64,000 nt of DNA from Tubulanus polymorphus. Its lineage: Eukaryota; Nemertea; Palaeonemertea; Tubulaniformes; Tubulanidae. This document shows, one piece after another, positions 1 to 13,900 of the stretch. The DNA lies in contig NC_134026.1 of the NCBI RefSeq assembly GCF_964204645.1, forward strand, positions 29,592,650 to 29,656,649, in the 5' to 3' direction. The first letter of the stretch is position 1; the number at the start of each line of letters is the position of its first letter. The notes beneath the pieces were generated by a model that saw only the letters and a program-made list of their open reading frames with translations, searched no databases and was not told the origin of the DNA. The translations under genes and the position numbers were made by a program.

Positions 1-717
<717 letters not shown>

Positions 718-1834
718 TTAAGTTATTCCATACACACCAACTACGCAGTACAACAAGGCACGGATTTACTTAAAGATTCGCTGTATATTTATATACATAT
801 ATGTATATATCATACTAATCTTAATCGCTATTGTTCTAAATTGTCAACCGTGATACCCACCGATGGGAAATCAAGCATTCGCCCGTTCTTGTAATGTTAT
901 GATTAGACTCATAAAGTTCACTAGAAATACTTTTTCCACGAGCGCCGTTACGAAAATAAACACTGATATGTTTGAATTGGATATATGGATTTTTGAATGA
1001 TATCTCAGGGAGTTTTGTGTATAGCATGGACCGGTTTGTTATGCGTATCCAGGGACTTTGTCGCAGTTTTTATTAGTCAGTTTTCGCATTGAACCGGTGG
1101 TTAACGCATTTGAAACATGCCGCTATCGGACCGAGCCTCGATCTATCCGAAAGAATTAAGTTTTGGAAACTAATTCATCTTAGTGTTCGAATTTCAAAAT
1201 ATTTTTCATTTTTTTCCGTCCGTTATATGTATTTGTAGGTATTGCTTCGATTTTCGAGAACAAGCACGCCATCCATACTTCAAAAACTTCAGAACTATTT
1301 CGATAAAGCAAAACAGAATAAGAACGAGTACTTTATATTAATTTATTTGTTTTTCAACATGATATATATCACACACTACAACATGTTTATAAATTGAATG
1401 CATGTCCGGTTATAAATCCTTTAGATTTGAGTATTTTAGTTTATGATACCAAATTTATAGACACTACCGGTATTCAGAAAAAAACTGATTGTTATTCACA
1501 GCAAAGTAACTGATGAAAACACAAAGCGATGAGTGCAATGGAGTTATTGCTTGGACGCAAGGTCATCATTTTCAACACCTACAAATAAGATAAAATAAGG
1601 AATGTTTATATAAAATACCACAATAGGAATGAAAAATTTCAACGTTTCATAAATATCCTAATATTCTTCTTCGGGAACTTCTTCGGGAATACTGGTTTCG
1701 AAATAATAAGGTTATAATATTGAAATCGTTGATTACACTAATACAAGGGAAATTTACATTATTTCTTTTTGAATGAGCATTTAACAATTACTGATAATCA
1801 TAATAACTTAATTTTCGCTCCATTTACTTACTTG

Positions 1835-2583
1835 TCATTGCAAGAGTACCTTTTCTTCGTTGTGACTAAGAGACGATTCACGATAAAAGGCAACAAGTTT
1901 ATTGAGCGAATTGAAGCTCATGACTCCAAAAATATAATTTCCATAACTGTCTCTCGTTATATCAAATTGCAGTACGCCATTGCTGCGTCTGAAACAAGGT
2001 TTATGACGTGTCAACCATGTCGCGGAAAGGGAAACGGTCGTAAATAAGATGCTTACGTGTAAACTGAAAGTGAGAAACCACCGGGTATCGAATCACTATC
2101 TCGAATGAAAAAATTCCTCTCCTCTCTTTGTTGTGCCATTAAGTCGGCTTCTTCGTACGTCATTTTGCCAAAGAACCACCTAAAAATGTTATTACATCAC
2201 TGTCTGTCCGTCATTGCATCAAATAAGAATGTGCACTGGTTTTGTTTGGATTCAATACTTATCATTTTATAAAAGTTGGGAGGTTGGATTAATTCTTACC
2301 CAATATCATCTATTTCTATGTGGTTCAGTGGAATGACCCCTTCTCTTCCATCTAATTCAGCCCTTATCCATTTTCTATTTTCGCACGGACGTTCTAAAAC
2401 CTAGAAAAGAACGGGTTGTTTTTTTTTAAGGAAAACAATACGGATGAGGAAACCGAATATTTGACGCATCCTACGATTTAGACCGTAGCCTGCCACGTTT
2501 ACTACCTTTACACATGTACCCTTGTTAACACTGAGTTCATCATTAGATCGCGCTTCGAAGTCTTGCGTCACCGTGGCTTCCAT
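1835..2583 (-). CDS. Truncated GRB2-like adaptor (SH3-SH2 only, 151 aa)
   Basis: Exons 2506-2583, 2300-2400, 2057-2179 and 1835-1988 join in frame and have the same lengths and phases as the neighbouring GRB2 gene, or nearly so. Start MEATVTQDFEARSNDELSV is an SH3 start; REGVIPLNHIEIDD closes it. SH2 follows with FFIRDSDSIPGGFSLSV, where FIRDSDS replaces FLVRES but keeps the binding arginine. The frame hits TGA at 1835-1837 just after SLSHNEEKVLLQ, the point where GRB2 runs on into its linker and second SH3. A good splice donor (GTAAGT) lies 3 nt past this stop, so the ancestral exon probably continued. The product would bind phosphotyrosine but lack the C-terminal SH3. It may be a functional short adaptor, a decaying copy, or a gene with an alternative 3' exon between 1500 and 1800 that I could not resolve. 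Confidence 0.75.
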
Positions 2584-3683
2584 TGTAAATGCTATATTGG
2601 TCAGAACCCCGATCCTGCCGCTTATGGGCCTACCGCGTTGTGTTTACACAGTGAATCGTTATGCGGCGTGCACGGGCCACATCGGCGATTTATGAATAGT
2701 AATAGGCTACGCTTTATAAGCGCAAAGGAATTAGCTTTACCATCGATGTTGTTTAAACTAAGAAAATGTTGTGAATCTTGTCTTATTTGGTGATTAGACT
2801 TAAAGCATTAACTAGATTGTCGACGATAGAGCGACCGGCCAGGGACCGGGGGGGCCTTGGCGACAATGAGATCTTGTTCTGCATTTGAAATGGCCGCCGA
2901 TTTTTTGGGTTGTGCGATGTGACGGCTACTAAAACTATTGCTAAACGAATTCCGTTTCTATATTTAATTGTCATATGCGCGTTGCGTTGCAGGGGACTGT
3001 TTGAACGATCCCGCTTGACGAAACTGGTTCGGTCCGTGCAGTAGTCCGGTTGCCAAATCCGAGGTGTGAGAGAAGAGAAGTTGTCCTAGATGTTTATTAG
3101 CCTTAAAAAGCAGATCCAACCTCAAATATCGGATGATTCAATTCTCACCAACGACATTATTCATAGCGGGTAAATGTCCGACGGAAATTGATGGTAAACT
3201 TATGTGGTGTCATAGAATAGGCTGGGTGCAAACTTTTAAAAACGAATGACACTATCAATAATATCACTAAGTAAATTCACAAAGCAGTTTCACTTCCGGG
3301 TTGATTCATTCACTCGGACCTGAATCATGAATGATTTAAAAGTCCTTTCTTTTTTCAAATGATAGAGCGTTTATTTCTGAGAGTCAAATATCGTGGGTGT
3401 TGTATAAAACTTAACATAGTTATTTACTCATAACCTTTAATATGATTGTAAGTCATTGTTGTACTTATTGTTGAAGAATCAAGTTGTATGATATTTTCTG
3501 TTCACGACACAACTTACTAGCAGTTACTCATTTCAAGTTAACGATTAGGTCATTCACTACTTATGACCATGACTGAACTGTTGTAATTAAATTTTCAGGT
3601 ATGATCAATTCATACAGTCTTACATGAAGAACCATGCGACAGATCACTTATGATAAGTTCAAGATAATCAGCAAAACTTGAAT
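2584..3683. other. Intergenic region between the GRB2-like pair and the GTPase-kinase gene
   Basis: No coding exon is supported here. It should hold the promoter of the minus-strand GRB2-like gene and the 5' UTR of the plus-strand GTPase-kinase gene; an AG at 3669-3670 just before the start could be a 5' UTR acceptor. A short GC-rich patch with a G run near 2835-2860 is the only compositional oddity. Confidence 0.5.
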
Positions 3684-6600
3684 ATGCTTAGAAATAGAAA
3701 CGAGAATATCACTTTCAATAATTGTGAAGAGTTTTCCGAGCAGTACCTGCAACAGATAGATGAATTGTACAGGCGATTTAAAAATGATCCGGAGTCACTG
3801 CATGCATTCCTGCAGCAGCAACATAGTTCGGGAAAGGTTTCTAAAAAGCGCAAAAAAACATGGATCAAGTTATTTTCACGTAAATTTAGTTCGATGAATC
3901 TTGACAAAAAGGGTTCTGCAGCTGTTGCAATGTCGTCACAAAAAGTGAAGCAAACCAAAGATGTTCAGAAACGGCCGAAAAATAGGTGTTTAGTTGCTGA
4001 CGCGGTATCCGACGGACTAGTGAAAAGTAAGATTGTTGTTGAAGCAAAGAAAACAAAAACGTTGAAGGTGAATGATGACAAGAATGATATTGATACCTTA
4101 GAGACTGCCTTGAAGAGGAATAGTGAATATAAAGAAATGCTGTATAAGTTGTTAGATGACACGGATAAGCAATGTTACAAATTAAGTGAAATTCTCTCTT
4201 CGGGACAAATGCAAAATCTACAGTCATTCCTCTTTTCTACCGAAGAGCATCAAGATTGTGAATATCATCTAAAAAAAGAGCACCTGATTATGGTTATGGG
4301 ACAAGTGAATTCGGGAAAAACAAGTTTGATAAATGAGATTCTCGGAAAAGGATATTTGCCGACATCTGAATTGCCGTGTACAGCACGAATAGTACGTATA
4401 AAGTACAATAAAGAGCCGTATGTACGTTTATTAGATAACGGAAAGTTGTTGGAAGAACAAAAACTTAATAAAAAGGTTCTACATAAGTTCATCGATTTGG
4501 AAGATGTGGAACGTAATGATTTGAGTGAAGTTAGTCATGTCGTCGAAGTTGGTTTAGATTGTGAACTACTGAGACGTGGATTACAAATAATGGATTCTCC
4601 CGGATTGAGTGAAAATGACGTATTAAATGAAAGAATTGAGATGTTGAGCAAAGAAGATTTACAACTAATGATTTATGTTATAGATGGAAACAGATCGCTC
4701 AATGAAAAAGTAAGTTATCAACAAATAGGTAAAAAATTCAGTGGAATCGCATTACAACGAACTTCAGGTGACCAGAAAATATGTTCGATATAACGAATTA
4801 TCGGTTATGACGAACTCAGAATATTGTCCCAAATAGAGCAGTTGTGATACTTTCATACTGGATAAAACACTTATTATACCTTCGTTTCTCCTTAACGGCT
4901 GGGTCATTTTGTAAACTGCGATAACTTTTTATAACTGCAAGGTCTGTTATGGTAAGCTTGATTATGATTTTAGAAAAAGTATTGTACAGAATAGATAGAT
5001 AGGTGGCCTCAACTTAAAAGTTCAGCAGAAATGAGAAACAAGGTTGCAGTTTTTTAGTCTAATAACGGATAGTTTGATATCCAATATGAAAGTATTACTA
5101 CAGTCCTATTTGGGACAAAATTCTGGGTTTGTAAAAACCGATACATCGTTATGTTTCAGTTCATTATCACAAGGTTCATTTACTACCGTATATTAAAATG
5201 ACAATTCTTCTGTATTTCAGGATCGAGTCTTTTTATTTAATGTAAAAGCCAAATCTCCGAAAATGAGAATCTTGTACGTTTGTAACAAATCCGAAGAGAA
5301 TGAATACGCGTCGTCGATGGATTGCGCTACGGATGACGAAGAAGAAAATCAAGTCAAGACCAAAAACTTTATCGATAAAGGAACATGGACGTTCGGAAAT
5401 CTGCAAAAGTTCGGACTCATCGATAAAGATCTTACGCGAGAGCAGTGCTCGGATTATTTTGCAGTTTCGTGTCACAATGTTAGGAGGGCTCGTCGAAAAA
5501 ATCAGAAAACTAAAGATACCGATAACTTCAACAAGTTCGTCAATTGCGTTGCTAAAAACTACATAAAAACAGGAAATCGACTACTAGAACACGCTGTCTG
5601 TAGATTAAATCTCATTCAAAAACGTGCATTCGATTTCTGTATCTCAGACAGATTTCTTAATTTGTCTCGGCCTCAAAGGCTGAAGGAAAATATCCAATCA
5701 GTTAAAACGCTCGGACTTAATCTGATGAGAGAATCAGTCGACGGTATGAACATGCGAGCTCGTGATCTAGCTCTGTCTATGAAACAAATGATCGAAAGCA
5801 AAGGAGGCGACCTTACCGAGAAAATCATTCACATGACATTCAGTCCAGTTTTCATCAAGAAAGAAGTTGAAAAGAATTTCTTGCTCGAAAATTGCCGGCA
5901 ACAAGTCCAAGATTTTATACTGGTTCAATTGAATTCAGACGTCGAGCAACTGTTATTTGATGAGTGGAAGAGATTTGTGGATTCAATTCTTTGTTGCATC
6001 GAGCACTTAGTTGAAACATTTCATCCGTACGAAGAATACGTACAAGATCATCTGAAGTTTTCATTTAACTCTTTACTGCAGTTTGAATTCGAAGCGATCA
6101 ACTTGGGTGAAGTTATGAATTTCGCGTACCTAGAATTCGCCGTAAAAACTTCTCGAAATTTGGAAAACGTGCGCGCGGCGTTGGTCGGCTGGCAGCTGAC
6201 TGACAAATGGAAATTACAAACCGCGAAGAATATTTTGAACGCGATCGACGTGGATAAACTCATTCAGAGATCGCACGAGAAAATGAAGAAGAGTTTGAAG
6301 GCTTGCGATAAAGAATTTCAGAACTGTTTGAACGCGCTTGAACAACTATCCAACACACGGTGTTTAGCTTTACCGAAAATGCAAGATGATTTATTGAAAC
6401 TGATGCCTATTTTCGGATTGACTATCTGTAAAACCGATGCTCTATCGCGTATTATAAAACAAGATCATCTCGAAGAAATGGGTGATTTCATCGCACAAGG
6501 TTCACGCAGTACAATTTATTCGTGTCGCAACAACGAAAATGTCATCATCAAGAAAACGAAAAATCCACAGGATTTTGCCAATGTGTACAACTTCATGAGG

Positions 6601-7791
6601 TATGTTCGATATATGAGTATAACATCAGGGTTCCAAATGTTGTTTTGTTTAAAGTCGTTTTTCAAGTGCCCTGACACTCTCTAAAACGATCCAGCCTTTC
6701 AGTCTAAACGATTACCGGTACTTTGCTTTAAGTCATAGAACCTTAAGTCTCATTTGGTGGATGTGCATTTGGGACATTAGTTTGTAGCAAACGTGTGGAA
6801 TTCCCTTCCCCACCTGCTACATACATGATATTGACTCCCAGCATTCAACGGTCATCAGCTCAACACATTGCTATTCAAGTCATCACCTGCGTCTAGAGTG
6901 CGCCTTGGTTTTTAACTATTCACGTGTTGTTTCTTATTCTCTTGTAATTATCAATTTTTCAGATTCGTAAATCACGAAGATCTGTTGAAGCCGATCGAGA
7001 CATCATTCGATTCCGAATTCGGATTGGTGCTGCTGTTACCTAGGTTACGATATACACCCGACTCGTTGGAAGCGTACAGTTTGTTCGATCTTCTGAAGGC
7101 TGGAATTCGTGAGTTTACGCTCAACGATAAAGTTGAAATATTCTATCAGCTCGTCTCCATCGTTTACGCTATGTCGGAGAAGAAATTCCGTCTCACAGAT
7201 CTCCGTCCTAATAATATTTTCATTATTAAACATGAGGTAAGTGAAATGTCTATTGCATAAAATGAGTCCGTGCTAAACCAATGATGTCATTTACGTTTAT
7301 ATCACCAGATGGCATGACAAGCACTCAGTCTTACTTTGTCAAAATTAGTTATACCTGTTATTCTCTTTTAGGAAGGAAAATTCAAAGTGAAAGTGAATAT
7401 ACTGAAAGTTATTTCTCTGGAAATTCCATATCCAGATGGCACGTTACCGTTTCACTTCGCTCCAGAGCGGTATGATTCTAGTATGTCCAGGGCTATCAAT
7501 CCGTATCACGAGGTTTACAGTCTCGGCGTGCTGCTATGGATGATGCTAAAGGGTACATTCTATCAGCCGCCGTGTTTACGTGACGCTAACCTCGCTCAAA
7601 TCAGATCGAAAGTCACGCAGTTAGCCGTAAGAGATGATATTGTTGCTAGTTTGGACGATATTTCGGGCACAAGTCGCGACATCACACAATTAAAGACTAT
7701 CGTAGTTAGCTCCGTGAACGAACCTGAAACACGAATTAGACTCGATGATTTATACTCAACGGTTGAGGAATACAGAGCACATTTAAACTAG
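3684..7791 (+). CDS. Dynamin-like GTPase fused to a kinase-like domain (about 1032 aa)
   Basis: Exons 3684-4709, 5221-6599, 6963-7236 and 7372-7791 join in frame with good donors (GTAAGT, GTATGT, GTAAGT). The N-terminal 200 residues are lysine-rich and helical. A GTPase domain follows: P-loop GQVNSGKTS (about 206-214), a switch I PTSELPCT, G3 DSPGL (about 304) and G4 NKSE (about 364, spanning exons 1-2). This is the dynamin/bacterial dynamin-like pattern. A long helical middle (about 380-750) leads to a kinase-like domain: loop AQGSRSTIY (about 769), VIIKK lysine (about 786), catalytic-loop LTDLRPNNI in place of HRDLKPxN (Asp about 881), APE (about 925) and EVYSLGVLLW. No DFG is visible between catalytic loop and APE, so it is probably a pseudokinase. 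The layout recalls DSTYK-type large kinases, but that identity is inference. ATG 3684 is the first in-frame Met. Confidence 0.8.
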
Positions 7792-9012
7792 AGCTTATCA
7801 TCTGCCTTTTGATTGAAATAATTCATAGATACCTTTTTGTTTGCTTTATTATGTTCACAGTGGAAGCGCGTTAAGACCTCAGATAAAATAACGATTTTTC
7901 AGATATAACAAACCTATTATTGGGATAATAGGCTATCCTGTTACATTTTTCTTCGTCTAATCATACTTATTTATCGTTCAATAATGTAACATCGTAATGA
8001 AAATAAATTTCAATTTCAATTATTTCATCCTAAATGAGATTACATTAGTAATATCATACTGACTGGATGTAACGAACTATCGGTTATAACAAGACGTAAG
8101 TTGGTTGAAATGAGGTTCCACTGTATAAGCTTATGAATGAAAATGTTTCCTTGAGTTTTTGTTGATTCTATGCCAATGAACTGCATTGTGCCATAATGTG
8201 AATTTGAATTTATTCTCTACTTACAGAAAGTGAAATCGTATTTGATGCATGTTACAGTTTATACATCTTATGTTTTATCTAGAGTTTAATGTTAATTTGC
8301 CGATATGTATATTCGTAATACATGTATATGGATAATTGTAACTGTATTTTGTATTTGGGTATATATTACGTTTTTGAACTATTACATAATTCAGCTATAT
8401 CTGGTATTTGAAATTTATGCTGAATTATGTAATAATTCACAATTCAAATATCTATTGTTATGGGGACTTGATTGAAAATTGTTGCTTCAAAATGAAATTT
8501 ACCTGTAAATGATGTCAGAATTCATAGTTCAATATTCATTACGTATCTCATTTCTCATAGGCCTATCTCATTGATCTATTATTCGCATGCATAGGGAAAT
8601 ACTTAGCTTCAAAAAATAATTTCAAACTGCTTCACGTTTATATCTGCAGAATAAATGAATAAATTAGAAGTTTTCTTTCTGTTGTCACTTGCTTGGAATT
8701 TCATCGTTAAAACGGAACGAACAAAGGAAGAGCTACACAATGTTTCGAGCTGCTGAGGATTCTACTTAGGTTTCTTTCCTTCTTTGCGTTATGCTTCAGC
8801 TTGGGTAAATCTAACAATATCAAGGATATCAAAGAACGAACGGGTATTTGGCTTGTTCGAGTGTTTATTTGATTTTCCTCTCAAATTAACGCATATAAGT
8901 CTTATTTTCGGAGATTGCTTCCAATCGACTGAGAACCAAATCGTTTGAACAGTCAGTTTTCATTCGGGCAGAAGAATTCGCTAAGGAGCGAAATGATGCA
9001 TATTGATGTTAG
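7792..9012. other. 3' UTR and intergenic region before the GPCR
   Basis: Beyond the poly(A) signal near 8002 this AT-rich stretch shows no open frame of note and no recognisable repeat. The final part should contain the GPCR promoter, since a TATA box begins at 9015. Confidence 0.5.
8002..8007 (+). terminator. Poly(A) signal AATAAA for the GTPase-kinase gene
   Basis: AATAAA lies about 210 bp past the stop codon at 7791, on the same strand, in AT-rich DNA with no gene until the GPCR. It is the first canonical hexamer I noticed after the stop. Confidence 0.55.
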
Positions 9013-9022: not shown

Positions 9023-9382
9023 TGGCCCCGTTTATCAATTTCACTAATACTGCACAGTTTTTTGTCGAGAGAGAATATTTTCCCAGTGCGTCTAAGGTAG
9101 GTTTAAATCGCAAAGTTTATTTTCATATGACGGGAGAAGATAGATTAGTAGGAATATTAATAAAGAGCGTTTGATATTTCAAAAAGTACATCCGCTATGA
9201 TCGGTATTCATTTTTCAAATTAATTCGGTATATGACTAGCGGTAGAAACAAAACTATAATGGAAGTTAAAAATTCCTGTACTTTTTGAAAAAGAATGATA
9301 TAAGATTATAACATAATGATATCAAAGAGTCCGAGGATTTGGGCTATTCATAAATACGTAACTATTTCAGGATTTTCGGAAA

Positions 9383-10453
9383 ATGTCTACGACTAATTCC
9401 AGTGGTTTTGATTATTACAATTACATGGATTTGTGTTTCTTCGACTACTTTCCAATGGACTTCTTATTGCGATTGAGATGGTTTTATCGACACTCGAGAC
9501 TCTATTTCTGGCTACCACTCGGTGTCATCAGTAACATGTTAGCAGTAGCTGGAAGTTTCGAAAGGGCCAGGCGAAGTTCCGCTCATTTGTTCATGTTCGT
9601 TCTGGCTTGGGCCGATATTACAGTACTAATGAACAGAACCATATTTCACGATATCCTACAAGTAAGATTGCGGTACCAGTTCAGTCAGATCGGTTGTAAA
9701 ATAGAAGGATTTGTAGATAGGTTAGCATTTCCTCTATCGTCGTGGCTTTTGGTTCTGATGACGGTAGATCGTACAGTAGCTATTACTCGACCGCTCAGCG
9801 CTCATCGACTGTGTACGGCCAAACGCGCTTTCATACAAATTATTACTTTGGTTTCAGCGTTGCTTATATTTAACTTATCTTCAACTGTTTGGCTTTATAA
9901 AGCGACGAAGCATATATTTTGGATAAACTGCATACCAAAATCAGAATCGAAAGTACTAGTCGACGCCTACGAGGCAATTGTTAGAAGTCTCGAATCATAT
10001 TTACCATTTTTGTTGATAACGGTTTTGAATGGTATTATGGCCACTTCGGTTCGTAGGGCCATGAAAATTCAAGCCGAAATGACCGGCGCCAAAAAAACCA
10101 ATCAAGCCGGCAATAGAGTGACGGTTATGGTCGTTATAGTTTCCGTTTCTTTTCTGTTATTAATGGGTCCTTTTAGTTTATCATACATTCTATTTACTGT
10201 TGGCTTTGACAGTTCAAATGACGCGATTAATTACTATCTGAGCCATTGCGACGGACCGGGTCCCATATTCACCGTGTTGAAACATATCGCCGAATCGATG
10301 GTTGATTTGAATTATGTAATAAACGGATACATCTACGTGGCCACTAGTTCCCAGTTTCGCTCGGATATTGCTCGAGTTTTTTGTTCAGGAGGAATCGTCA
10401 AACTCAAAGAGTCAATTGGTGGATCATCTAAGAGTAATGATGGAAACCTGTAG
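9383..10453 (+). CDS. Class A (rhodopsin-family) G protein-coupled receptor, orphan, 356 aa
   Basis: A single coding exon encodes seven hydrophobic segments. Family landmarks: extracellular N-terminus with an NSS glycosylation site at 5-7; TM1 with Asn in GVISN; TM2 LAWAD with Asp78; Cys105 before TM3 and Cys183 in the second extracellular loop, the usual disulphide pair; DRT at 129-131 in place of DRY; Pro208 in TM5; Pro263 in TM6; and NGYIY (314-318) in place of NPxxY in TM7. The short Ser-rich tail ends at residue 356. Overall look is that of invertebrate peptide-type receptors (FMRFamide-receptor-like), but no ligand can be assigned. The start codon follows a splice acceptor by 12 nt, so an intron separates leader and coding exon. 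The gene lies between the GTPase-kinase and LHFPL genes on the same strand. Confidence 0.88.
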   Translation: MSTTNSSGFDYYNYMDLCFFDYFPMDFLLRLRWFYRHSRLYFWLPLGVISNMLAVAGSFERARRSSAHLFMFVLAWADITVLMNRTIFHDILQVRLRYQFSQIGCKIEGFVDRLAFPLSSWLLVLMTVDRTVAITRPLSAHRLCTAKRAFIQIITLVSALLIFNLSSTVWLYKATKHIFWINCIPKSESKVLVDAYEAIVRSLESYLPFLLITVLNGIMATSVRRAMKIQAEMTGAKKTNQAGNRVTVMVVIVSVSFLLLMGPFSLSYILFTVGFDSSNDAINYYLSHCDGPGPIFTVLKHIAESMVDLNYVINGYIYVATSSQFRSDIARVFCSGGIVKLKESIGGSSKSNDGNL

Positions 10454-10574: not shown

Positions 10575-10947
10575 AAACATGTTAGAAGTTAAAGTTTACG
10601 TTTATTTGATATAATTTAATTCTATATGTTGTGGTAACATTGATGGATAATGTACTAACGCATGCTAAAAAATATATAAATGACATGTTTGATCAAGTTT
10701 CATGTTTGTAAGTTTCTCGCAGTGTTGTATTGGTTTTAACTGTTGCGCTGTAATTGGATGCTGGAGTGACCGGGATGCGGTAAGATTCTGCTGCAGGGAA
10801 TTCGCTACCTCCCTGTTGCACATCGCGTAGCGCGCAACAGGATAACAGATATCAACAGTTGACAATTTCAGTCGAGAAAAGCTTGCAACAATTTACAGAC
10901 GGAAGCTTTCATCTTTTCTAGAAAAATTATTTTGATAGTGATAGAAA

Positions 10948-13900
10948 ATGTCATCAAGTCCGATCGGTATTTTGTGGACGATTTTGTCAATTATGGTTGC
11001 GGGCATCTGTTCGTTTGCGTTTATGCAGCCGTATTGGATACTGGAACCTGATAAATTAAACTGTTTCGGGGTACTGAACTATTGCGTTAAAGATCCTCGT
11101 TCACAGGACAAAGTGAGACAATTTTGTGGTTTTTACGGAGGTGTTTTTAACTATTTTTCTATACCGAGCACGTCTTGGAAAGCTACATGCGCATTGTTTG
11201 GAGGGGGTATCGCGCTCATGGGTTTAAGTTGTTTATTCTGTTTCTTCATGAATGTTGCTCCGAAAGCGCACGTCCGAAGACTGTCACTTATCAGTGGAAA
11301 CATACAAGTTTTAGCAGGTAAGACTAAAAAAACAACTCATTTTACAATCAAACAATTGAAACATTTTTAATCATTCATCGCGATTTGAGATTTCAAAGTA
11401 AAGAAAGACTCGATCAAACTAATAAGCAGTATCGTCATGACGACACAACACGGCATAAACGAATTATCCTTCGCCGATTTATGTTTTGTAAACTGTTTTT
11501 TATTTTGAAAATCTTCCCGCCGCGACAAATCAACGTTATCCGTGCTGGGTGAATACATCCTCATCACAGCGTCTACGTATGATGATATTGGATTTGCGTG
11601 ATTTAAAACACAAAAACAATTTGCTGATCGACATAGAATTCCGAGTGGACACAAAAACTGCACAAAAAGTTCACCCGACTGCCATAAATCAAAGGCTGAA
11701 AATAAGATTACAGTTGTTTATAACAGCTCCTCCTTCTCACACTTGGATTGATAATGGGCAGTGATAAATGCGAAATGGGAGAATCTATCTAATTAAAAAT
11801 ACAACATGCGACAAAGTGACGTCATGACCCTTATGTTACTCAATACACTGATCGAATGTAGATGTTAATGACTGGGTTATCAGTACAGAGGATTAGCCGC
11901 TAATCTGATGTCTGCAACTATCAACTTTTCAAGCTGCTGATGGCCCTGCACGCCTTCTGAGTCTAAATATGAAACGTACGACCAGTTCGAAATGAATTTT
12001 CTTTTTTTTCCCAGTTGGTATTTCTTCATTAATCGATCTTCCCGACTATTTTCATGCGCTTTTTTCAATATTTAACTAAAACAGTTTTTGTCCCCTTTTG
12101 AAATGGATAAACTGATGATTTACAGCGATAGACTCGCGTTTCAGACTCATTCAACCATTGGCGCCATGCTTGGCTGATTTAATCGTCCTATGCGACAGAT
12201 AAATGCTCAGTGATTACACAGATTTTGACAGATTACTCAGTCTTATCTGTGCCGGAATTTACCAGTCTTGGACAAGATTAATCGAAGAGATCTCAGCCCC
12301 TTGCCTGTCAGGGGTGGTGCCATTATACGTGCTTAGATTAATACCATTGACCAACGACCGTATTTCTCATTATGCATCCAACAATAAAATATATTTATAG
12401 AATTTATACACATATTGTCACAAATAACACACTTAGAATGTATGTTAATTACTAATGCATTAGTTGGTATTCTACACGTGTTTTTGTGGTGGTAGTTTTT
12501 ATTTGTAGGTGGTAGAGTTCTAATCAGCCGCGATTACCGGATGTTACGAAAGGTTTCGCGTCAAATTAGCTTTTACTACATCGCCATACCATTATACGTC
12601 CCTACGTCCCTAAGCCCGAGTAAAAAATCTGATCAACCATTCAGTACGTGCAATAGCCAATCTCTGCTAATACCTGTCATAAAAATCACAGCAAATAACA
12701 ACGGGAGATAATGACTGTTAAGAAAAAAGTAAACGAACGGGATGTGTTATTAGTTTTTCGAATTTTCTTTCCGATGACGACGTCGTCACTCTGATTTTTG
12801 AGTTATTCTTACAATCTGAACTTAGCGACTTCTACTGAAGATGTAGGATTCCGTATTAATCATCAGTCAGAGCTCAACATGTGAGGAGGGAAGAGAGATC
12901 TGATGAGATCGATGTGTCTCGCTATCCTCTCTTTCTACTCACTTCTCCTCTGGGATCAGTTCCTTTTGATGCCACCTGATGATTATATTGATTGATAATG
13001 TCGATATATTTTACCTAATTTAACATGTGACTCATGCGCTCTTGAATATCTGAGTCCATCCAACGCGACGTATTGAAATTCTGATGTCACTTTAAGGATT
13101 TACTGAAACATTTTTAATTAATGATATAGTCCTGGGAATAGAAAATTAATCCTGCGAGAAATTACATGTCATCGTTGTATGTATGACTTTTTAGACTAAC
13201 ATCTCATCGGATCGATAGAATTTCAAGACATTTTTGCTAGTAAAAGGTTGTGATAATCCATCCCACCTATGATTCAACAATGGGCGGGATCTGGGCCTGT
13301 CCGAAATACGACAACCAAGAACAATACATTAATTCTTTTTACATTCAGGATGTTCAAATCACCAAAACTAGATTTTATGAGAGGATTTTATATTTTTGCC
13401 TCTGCGACTTGAAGAATATACGTAAATGATTACGAAAATATCAGATAGATTTTATGAACTGTTGGTAACTAATCAACTACAGGAAAGACTGTTCATTCTC
13501 TCGACTTTATTGATAACATATGTGACCGATTCAGAAGCGCGAAGTAAGTGATATATCCAAGTGTTAATGAGATGTTAGGGTGGAACCTATCACGACGAGA
13601 TGCGTCGACTGTGGTCAGTTTGCGATGACTTTATTGACGATCGACTGTAACTTACTGATGACTCACATTTCTCGTCTGTTTGTCTGATTAACTGTTATTA
13701 ATATCATAAATCATTGTGTGAGTGTCAAACCACGTCGTATCCTCAGAGATTTCTCCGTCGTCCGTTTATTTGACTAAAAGATCCATTTGATGCCAAACAC
13801 CAAAAGAGTGGCAGGTATTCATCACGCCATAAACCATCATGAAAAACTTTGTTTGACCTTATCGTTCTTGAAAATAATTTTCTTTATGAATATTAGTAAA

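Follow-up and report, generated by a model that had tools for sequence, protein, structure and literature searches.

A dynamin-like GTPase joined to a pseudokinase in one predicted protein, a probable divergent paralogue within the DSTYK family

The window, a 64,000-nucleotide stretch (C2:29,592,650-29,656,649) of the 268-Mb animal genome that was searched, holds a plus-strand gene at positions 3684-7791, rightly placed there by the first-pass annotation, with four exons and a predicted product of 1032 amino acids. The exons join at GT..AG sites in a single frame with zero stops, the splice sites of introns 1 to 3 being GTAAGT/TTTCAG, GTATGT/TTTCAG and GTAAGT/TTTTAG. At the stop frequency of the window (6.1% per codon), an open frame of 378 codons has a chance probability near 5e-11 and one of about 459 codons near 3e-13, and the odds for the 140 codons of the N-terminal extension are about 1.5e-4. 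The gene region contains the following features.

3684..4709, plus strand: exon 1, N-terminal extension and GTPase G1-G3, aa 1-342; donor GTAAGT, phase 0; open frame of 378 aa
3684..4091, plus strand: lysine-rich N-terminal extension, about aa 1-136 (gene models)
4287..5286, plus strand: GTPase domain of the Dynamin_N type (aa 202-364), interrupted by intron 1 (Pfam E=2.5e-22)
4299..4325, plus strand: G1 P-loop GQVNSGKTS (sequence motif)
5221..6599, plus strand: exon 2 (aa 343-801), coding for the last part of the GTPase with G4 NKSE, the middle region and the beginning of the kinase N-lobe; acceptor TTTCAG, donor GTATGT, phase 2
5422..6459, plus strand: middle region common to DSTYK-family members, aa about 410-755 (profile of L024 and L028, E=6e-5)
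6490..7620, plus strand: pseudokinase domain, aa 766-976 by Pfam Pkinase, split by introns 2 and 3
6963..7236, plus strand: exon 3, coding for the kinase from alphaC through the catalytic loop LTDLRPNNI; donor GTAAGT, phase 0
7192..7218, plus strand: degenerate catalytic loop LTDLRPNNI, HRD replaced by LTD (sequence motif)
7372..7791, plus strand: exon 4, pseudo-activation loop, APE, C-lobe and stop; acceptor TTTTAG
7459..7467, plus strand: APE motif, preceded by PDGTLPFH in common with L022 (sequence motif)
8002..8007, plus strand: AATAAA, candidate polyadenylation signal, about 210 nt past the stop

Two tandem GRB2-like SH3-SH2 genes, identified by eye, lie head-to-head with the window gene (1-2650, minus strand), and downstream of it are a single-exon rhodopsin-family GPCR (9362-10453, plus strand) and an LHFPL-family gene (10945-11370, plus strand). 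The lysine-rich N-terminal extension is absent from the gene model of the nearest paralogue (L022) and is possibly a membrane- or protein-binding tail.

The dynamin-like GTPase that the first-pass annotation had read from motifs is matched by Pfam Dynamin_N at 80.1 bits, against a cut-off of 27, and every motif it had named was found (GQVNSGKTS at aa 206, PCT at 231, DSPGL at 304 and NKSE at 364, followed in the kinase half by VIIKK at 783, LTDLRPNNI at 879 and APE at 923). The G1-G4 set is complete (GQVNSGKT, PCT, DSPG, NKSE), G4 carrying Glu for the Asp of NKxD; the G4 of L022 is NKVE. The closest solved structures are the bacterial dynamin-like protein BDLP (2j68) and then mitofusin Fzo1, and a profile of the family GTPases also matches MFN1, MFN2 and other bacterial dynamins. 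BDLP and the mitofusins lack a kinase, which the window protein has; in the window protein, by contrast, neither a transmembrane nor a paddle segment is evident, and hydropathy reveals no clear membrane anchor (maximum KD19 1.17). LRRK2-type ROCO kinases likewise join a GTPase to a kinase in one chain, but they use a Ras-like Roc domain with COR where the window protein uses Dynamin_N (Roc matches at only E=0.053 in Pfam), making the two designs convergent at most. The middle region corresponds to no generic domain and is presumed to be a dynamin-like stalk or neck. Single-sequence AlphaFold2 models had mean pLDDT values of 34.5 (exon 2) and 39.4 (the GTPase part of exon 1), too poor for fold comparison.

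The C-terminal half matches Pfam Pkinase at E=2.2e-7, in keeping with the kinase-like fold proposed for it, although the score of 31.0 bits falls 0.7 below the cut-off of 31.7; the domain aligns along its full length with the kinases of L022, L024 and L028. An alignment with active relatives confirmed the reported absence of DFG (Asn plus a deletion) and of the HRD His and Arg (LTD), and added the loss of the alphaC Glu. The 1032-aa frame, the Pfam matches and the motifs support a dynamin-like GTPase and a pseudokinase in one predicted polypeptide. A gene-model error is unlikely to lie behind the motif loss, because the region from the catalytic loop to APE falls fully inside exons 3 and 4 and L022 has lost the same motifs in the same place. 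The VAIK Lys (K786) and the catalytic-loop Asp (D881) and Asn (N886) are retained, which would suit a pseudokinase that still binds ATP and performs atypical catalysis through D881 and K786; this is made improbable by the altered DFG, by the missing alphaC Glu and by the closest kin, L022, in which the catalytic Asp is also lost (FAE).

Whole-genome searches with the window protein, Dynamin_N, the L024 kinase and the DSTYK orthologue as queries showed that the same genome has, besides a distinct and clear DSTYK orthologue, no fewer than six other relatives. Their gene models were built with a purpose-written spliced aligner, which also reproduced the window exons. The genes are as follows.

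Window gene and L022 (C2:23.2 Mb): all GTPase motifs present, kinase half a pseudokinase
L024 and L025 (C4:24.277 and 24.287 Mb), in tandem: both domains motif-complete (Dynamin_N 1.8e-17, Pkinase 1e-39)
L026 (C5) and L027 (C9): GTPase complete, kinase remnant barely recognisable (best E=0.044, for L026)
L023 (C3:18.17 Mb; exon at 18.166 Mb): GTPase exon of the family found alone
L028 and L029 (C3:7.78-7.79 Mb): DSTYK orthologue
L031, 480-5740 (C3:4.84 Mb): more distant gene with a dynamin-like GTPase and an active-type kinase (HRDLK, DLG)

L022 is 40% identical to the window gene in the GTPase and 27-35% elsewhere. L024 and L025 belong to the same family, with a GTPase 37% identical to that of the window gene, but keep a motif-complete kinase where that of the window gene is degenerate. 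Their kinases are 98.5% alike and 13 of their 16 codon differences alter the amino acid, too few for a dN/dS reading; assembly duplication is a possible source of this near-identity. The GTPase exon of L023 is followed by long tandem repeats (RPRQFIILVLSPATIH...), and the approximately 13 kb downstream of it yielded no middle or kinase exons.

That this family does decay is evident from the GTPase-only L023 and from L026 and L027, whose kinase ends are readable as fragments only, and the window gene might be a decaying, functionless copy, a pseudogene in the making whose kinase motifs were lost by plain decay. This appears unlikely for a frame intact across 1032 codons in four clean exons. Moreover, PNNIF and PDGxxPFHxAPE are conserved between the window gene and L022 at an overall identity of 32%, so the dead kinase site looks constrained.

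The DSTYK orthologue (L028/L029) is 75-79% identical to human DSTYK in several kinase exons and 36-38% identical in the N-terminal half, a comparison that in itself makes the name a lead. The name is backed independently by the spacing of 96 from the VAIK Lys to the HRD Asp, which equals that between K681 and D777, the residues altered in the published kinase-dead mutants K681A and D777A of human DSTYK, as given in the available text of PMC11933320. The kinase of the orthologue is intact (HRDIK, DLG; Pkinase 7e-36). Its N-terminal half is matched by Dynamin_N at only E=0.085 in Pfam, but a profile of five family GTPases, built without the orthologue, detects it at E=3.9e-17, calculated for a database size of 177,635, and reported zero shuffled copies. 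The P-loop reads GQTSNAKA and G3 reads SPCR, G4 is missing, and the P-loop Gly, DxxG and NKxD are lost. By these profile and motif data, DSTYK in this genome has a dynamin-like G domain that is dead and goes uncalled in Pfam. The two genes, side by side in this genome, are thus opposites: an active-type kinase with a motif-dead GTPase in the DSTYK orthologue, and the reverse in the window gene. The presence of this separate gene at C3:7.78-7.79 Mb rules out the window gene as a strict one-to-one DSTYK orthologue.

The two genes share the same order of regions, with a homologous GTPase-like half, middle region and kinase and three common introns, and the DSTYK kinship first suggested from the window sequence is supported by homology in all three regions and by intron positions and phases. 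When the DSTYK orthologue served as query against the whole genome, L024 was matched in its middle region at E=8e-15 and in its GTPase exon at 1.6e-5, and L022 at 9e-7 and 2.7e-4, respectively; the GTPase exon of the window gene was matched at 5e-4. For L024 the matches cover all three regions, for L022 two, and for the window gene this exon. All three window introns match in position and phase in L022, in the L024/L025 tandem pair and in the DSTYK orthologue, lying after the 'YVIDGNRSLNEK' strand of the G domain (phase 0), in alphaC (phase 2) and before DFG (phase 0), with a few residues of alignment slack at intron 3. This sharing of introns places both domains in one ancestral gene.

An independent fusion, in which a dynamin-like GTPase gene captured an unrelated set of kinase exons and the likeness to DSTYK reflects only that both are kinases, would account for the weak matches of the window kinase to all solved kinases (best chain E=0.017). 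It would also account for the whole-genome scan with the window kinase alone, which matched only L022 and did not pick out the DSTYK kinase, so that the evidence for kinship with DSTYK lies in pairwise and profile scores, in the two other regions and in the introns. Fusion may have occurred more than once, since the GTPase of L031 groups with BDLP, apart from the window gene, in the GTPase tree; L031 may be a second lineage or fusion. We nevertheless consider an independent origin of the window gene improbable given the homology of the middle region across the family and the three common introns of equal phase. The kinase itself argues in the same direction: it scores 48 bits against the DSTYK orthologue by blastp and less than 18 bits against any solved kinase, a rough comparison between different programs, and a kinase profile of L024 and L028 matches it at E=4e-4. 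L031 has a strongly hydrophobic stretch (KD19 1.98) between its GTPase and kinase.

The dead-kinase clade of the window gene and L022 has 100/100 support in the kinase tree; in the GTPase tree some forks stay open and branches are long, and it does not order the deeper splits. Because L024 and L025 keep both enzymes, an ancestor with both followed by reciprocal loss would be the simplest history, the GTPase being lost in DSTYK and the kinase in the window/L022 clade and in L026 and L027. The design that the first-pass annotation had called unusual and possibly DSTYK-like would then be DSTYK-related, as it had proposed, yet no new fusion, being instead the ancestral layout of a family whose DSTYK orthologue still has a cryptic GTPase.

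With a probability of roughly 0.65, the window gene is a divergent paralogue within the DSTYK family in the wide sense, descended from an ancestor that would have joined a mitofusin/BDLP-type dynamin GTPase to a C-terminal kinase, and its product would work as follows. By binding and hydrolysing GTP, the dynamin half would assemble in mitofusin/BDLP-like fashion on a membrane, the probable site being late endosomes or lysosomes. The pseudokinase would be a docking or allosteric, regulatory module, through which the protein could perhaps join assemblies with kinase-active members of the family.

DSTYK has been tied to kidney malformation, spastic paraplegia SPG23, scoliosis and STING signalling. 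Genes for it have been reported in tick, sea urchin and bee, and it was called a single-copy unique kinase in vertebrates (2007, PMC2100071). According to the available text of the respective reports, DSTYK is involved in the fusion of pre-vacuolar carriers (PMC7012607), resides in mammalian cells on late endosomes and lysosomes, which its overexpression enlarges (PMC6981171), and phosphorylates STING at late endosomes (PMC11933320); these portions ascribe the effects to the kinase and leave dynamin unmentioned. This biology fits a membrane role. A half resembling mitofusins and BDLP would tie the protein directly and physically to membrane fusion. The chances are about even that DSTYK is a kinase on a degenerate mitofusin/BDLP-type dynamin and that GTPase-only, kinase-only and bifunctional paralogues may cooperate on late endosomal membranes. 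If true, such a split-enzyme family would explain the control of vacuole and lysosome fusion by DSTYK.

The window gene would be a variant within the known DSTYK family and not a new kind. No literature was found linking DSTYK to dynamins, and the available part of a paper on RIP-kinase evolution mentions no GTPase for DSTYK; unindexed annotation may exist, and automatic pipelines elsewhere may have assigned Dynamin_N to DSTYK-like genes already. In the accessible portions of the DSTYK literature most of the chain is without an assigned fold. Should the N-terminal half of DSTYK prove to be a dead dynamin GTPase, its effects on lysosomes and on vacuole fusion could be tested as membrane assembly of the dynamin type; the window gene and the bifunctional C4 pair (L024/L025) would serve such work as relatives with a presumably living GTPase. 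The family would also be a tidy natural example of a two-enzyme protein whose activities were lost reciprocally.

The DSTYK orthologue (reverse strand, C3 approximately 7.780-7.781 Mb) contains two tandem 156-nt exons coding for the kinase hinge region. Both have the same phase and canonical splice sites and they are 54% identical in nucleotides, making them candidate mutually exclusive exons.
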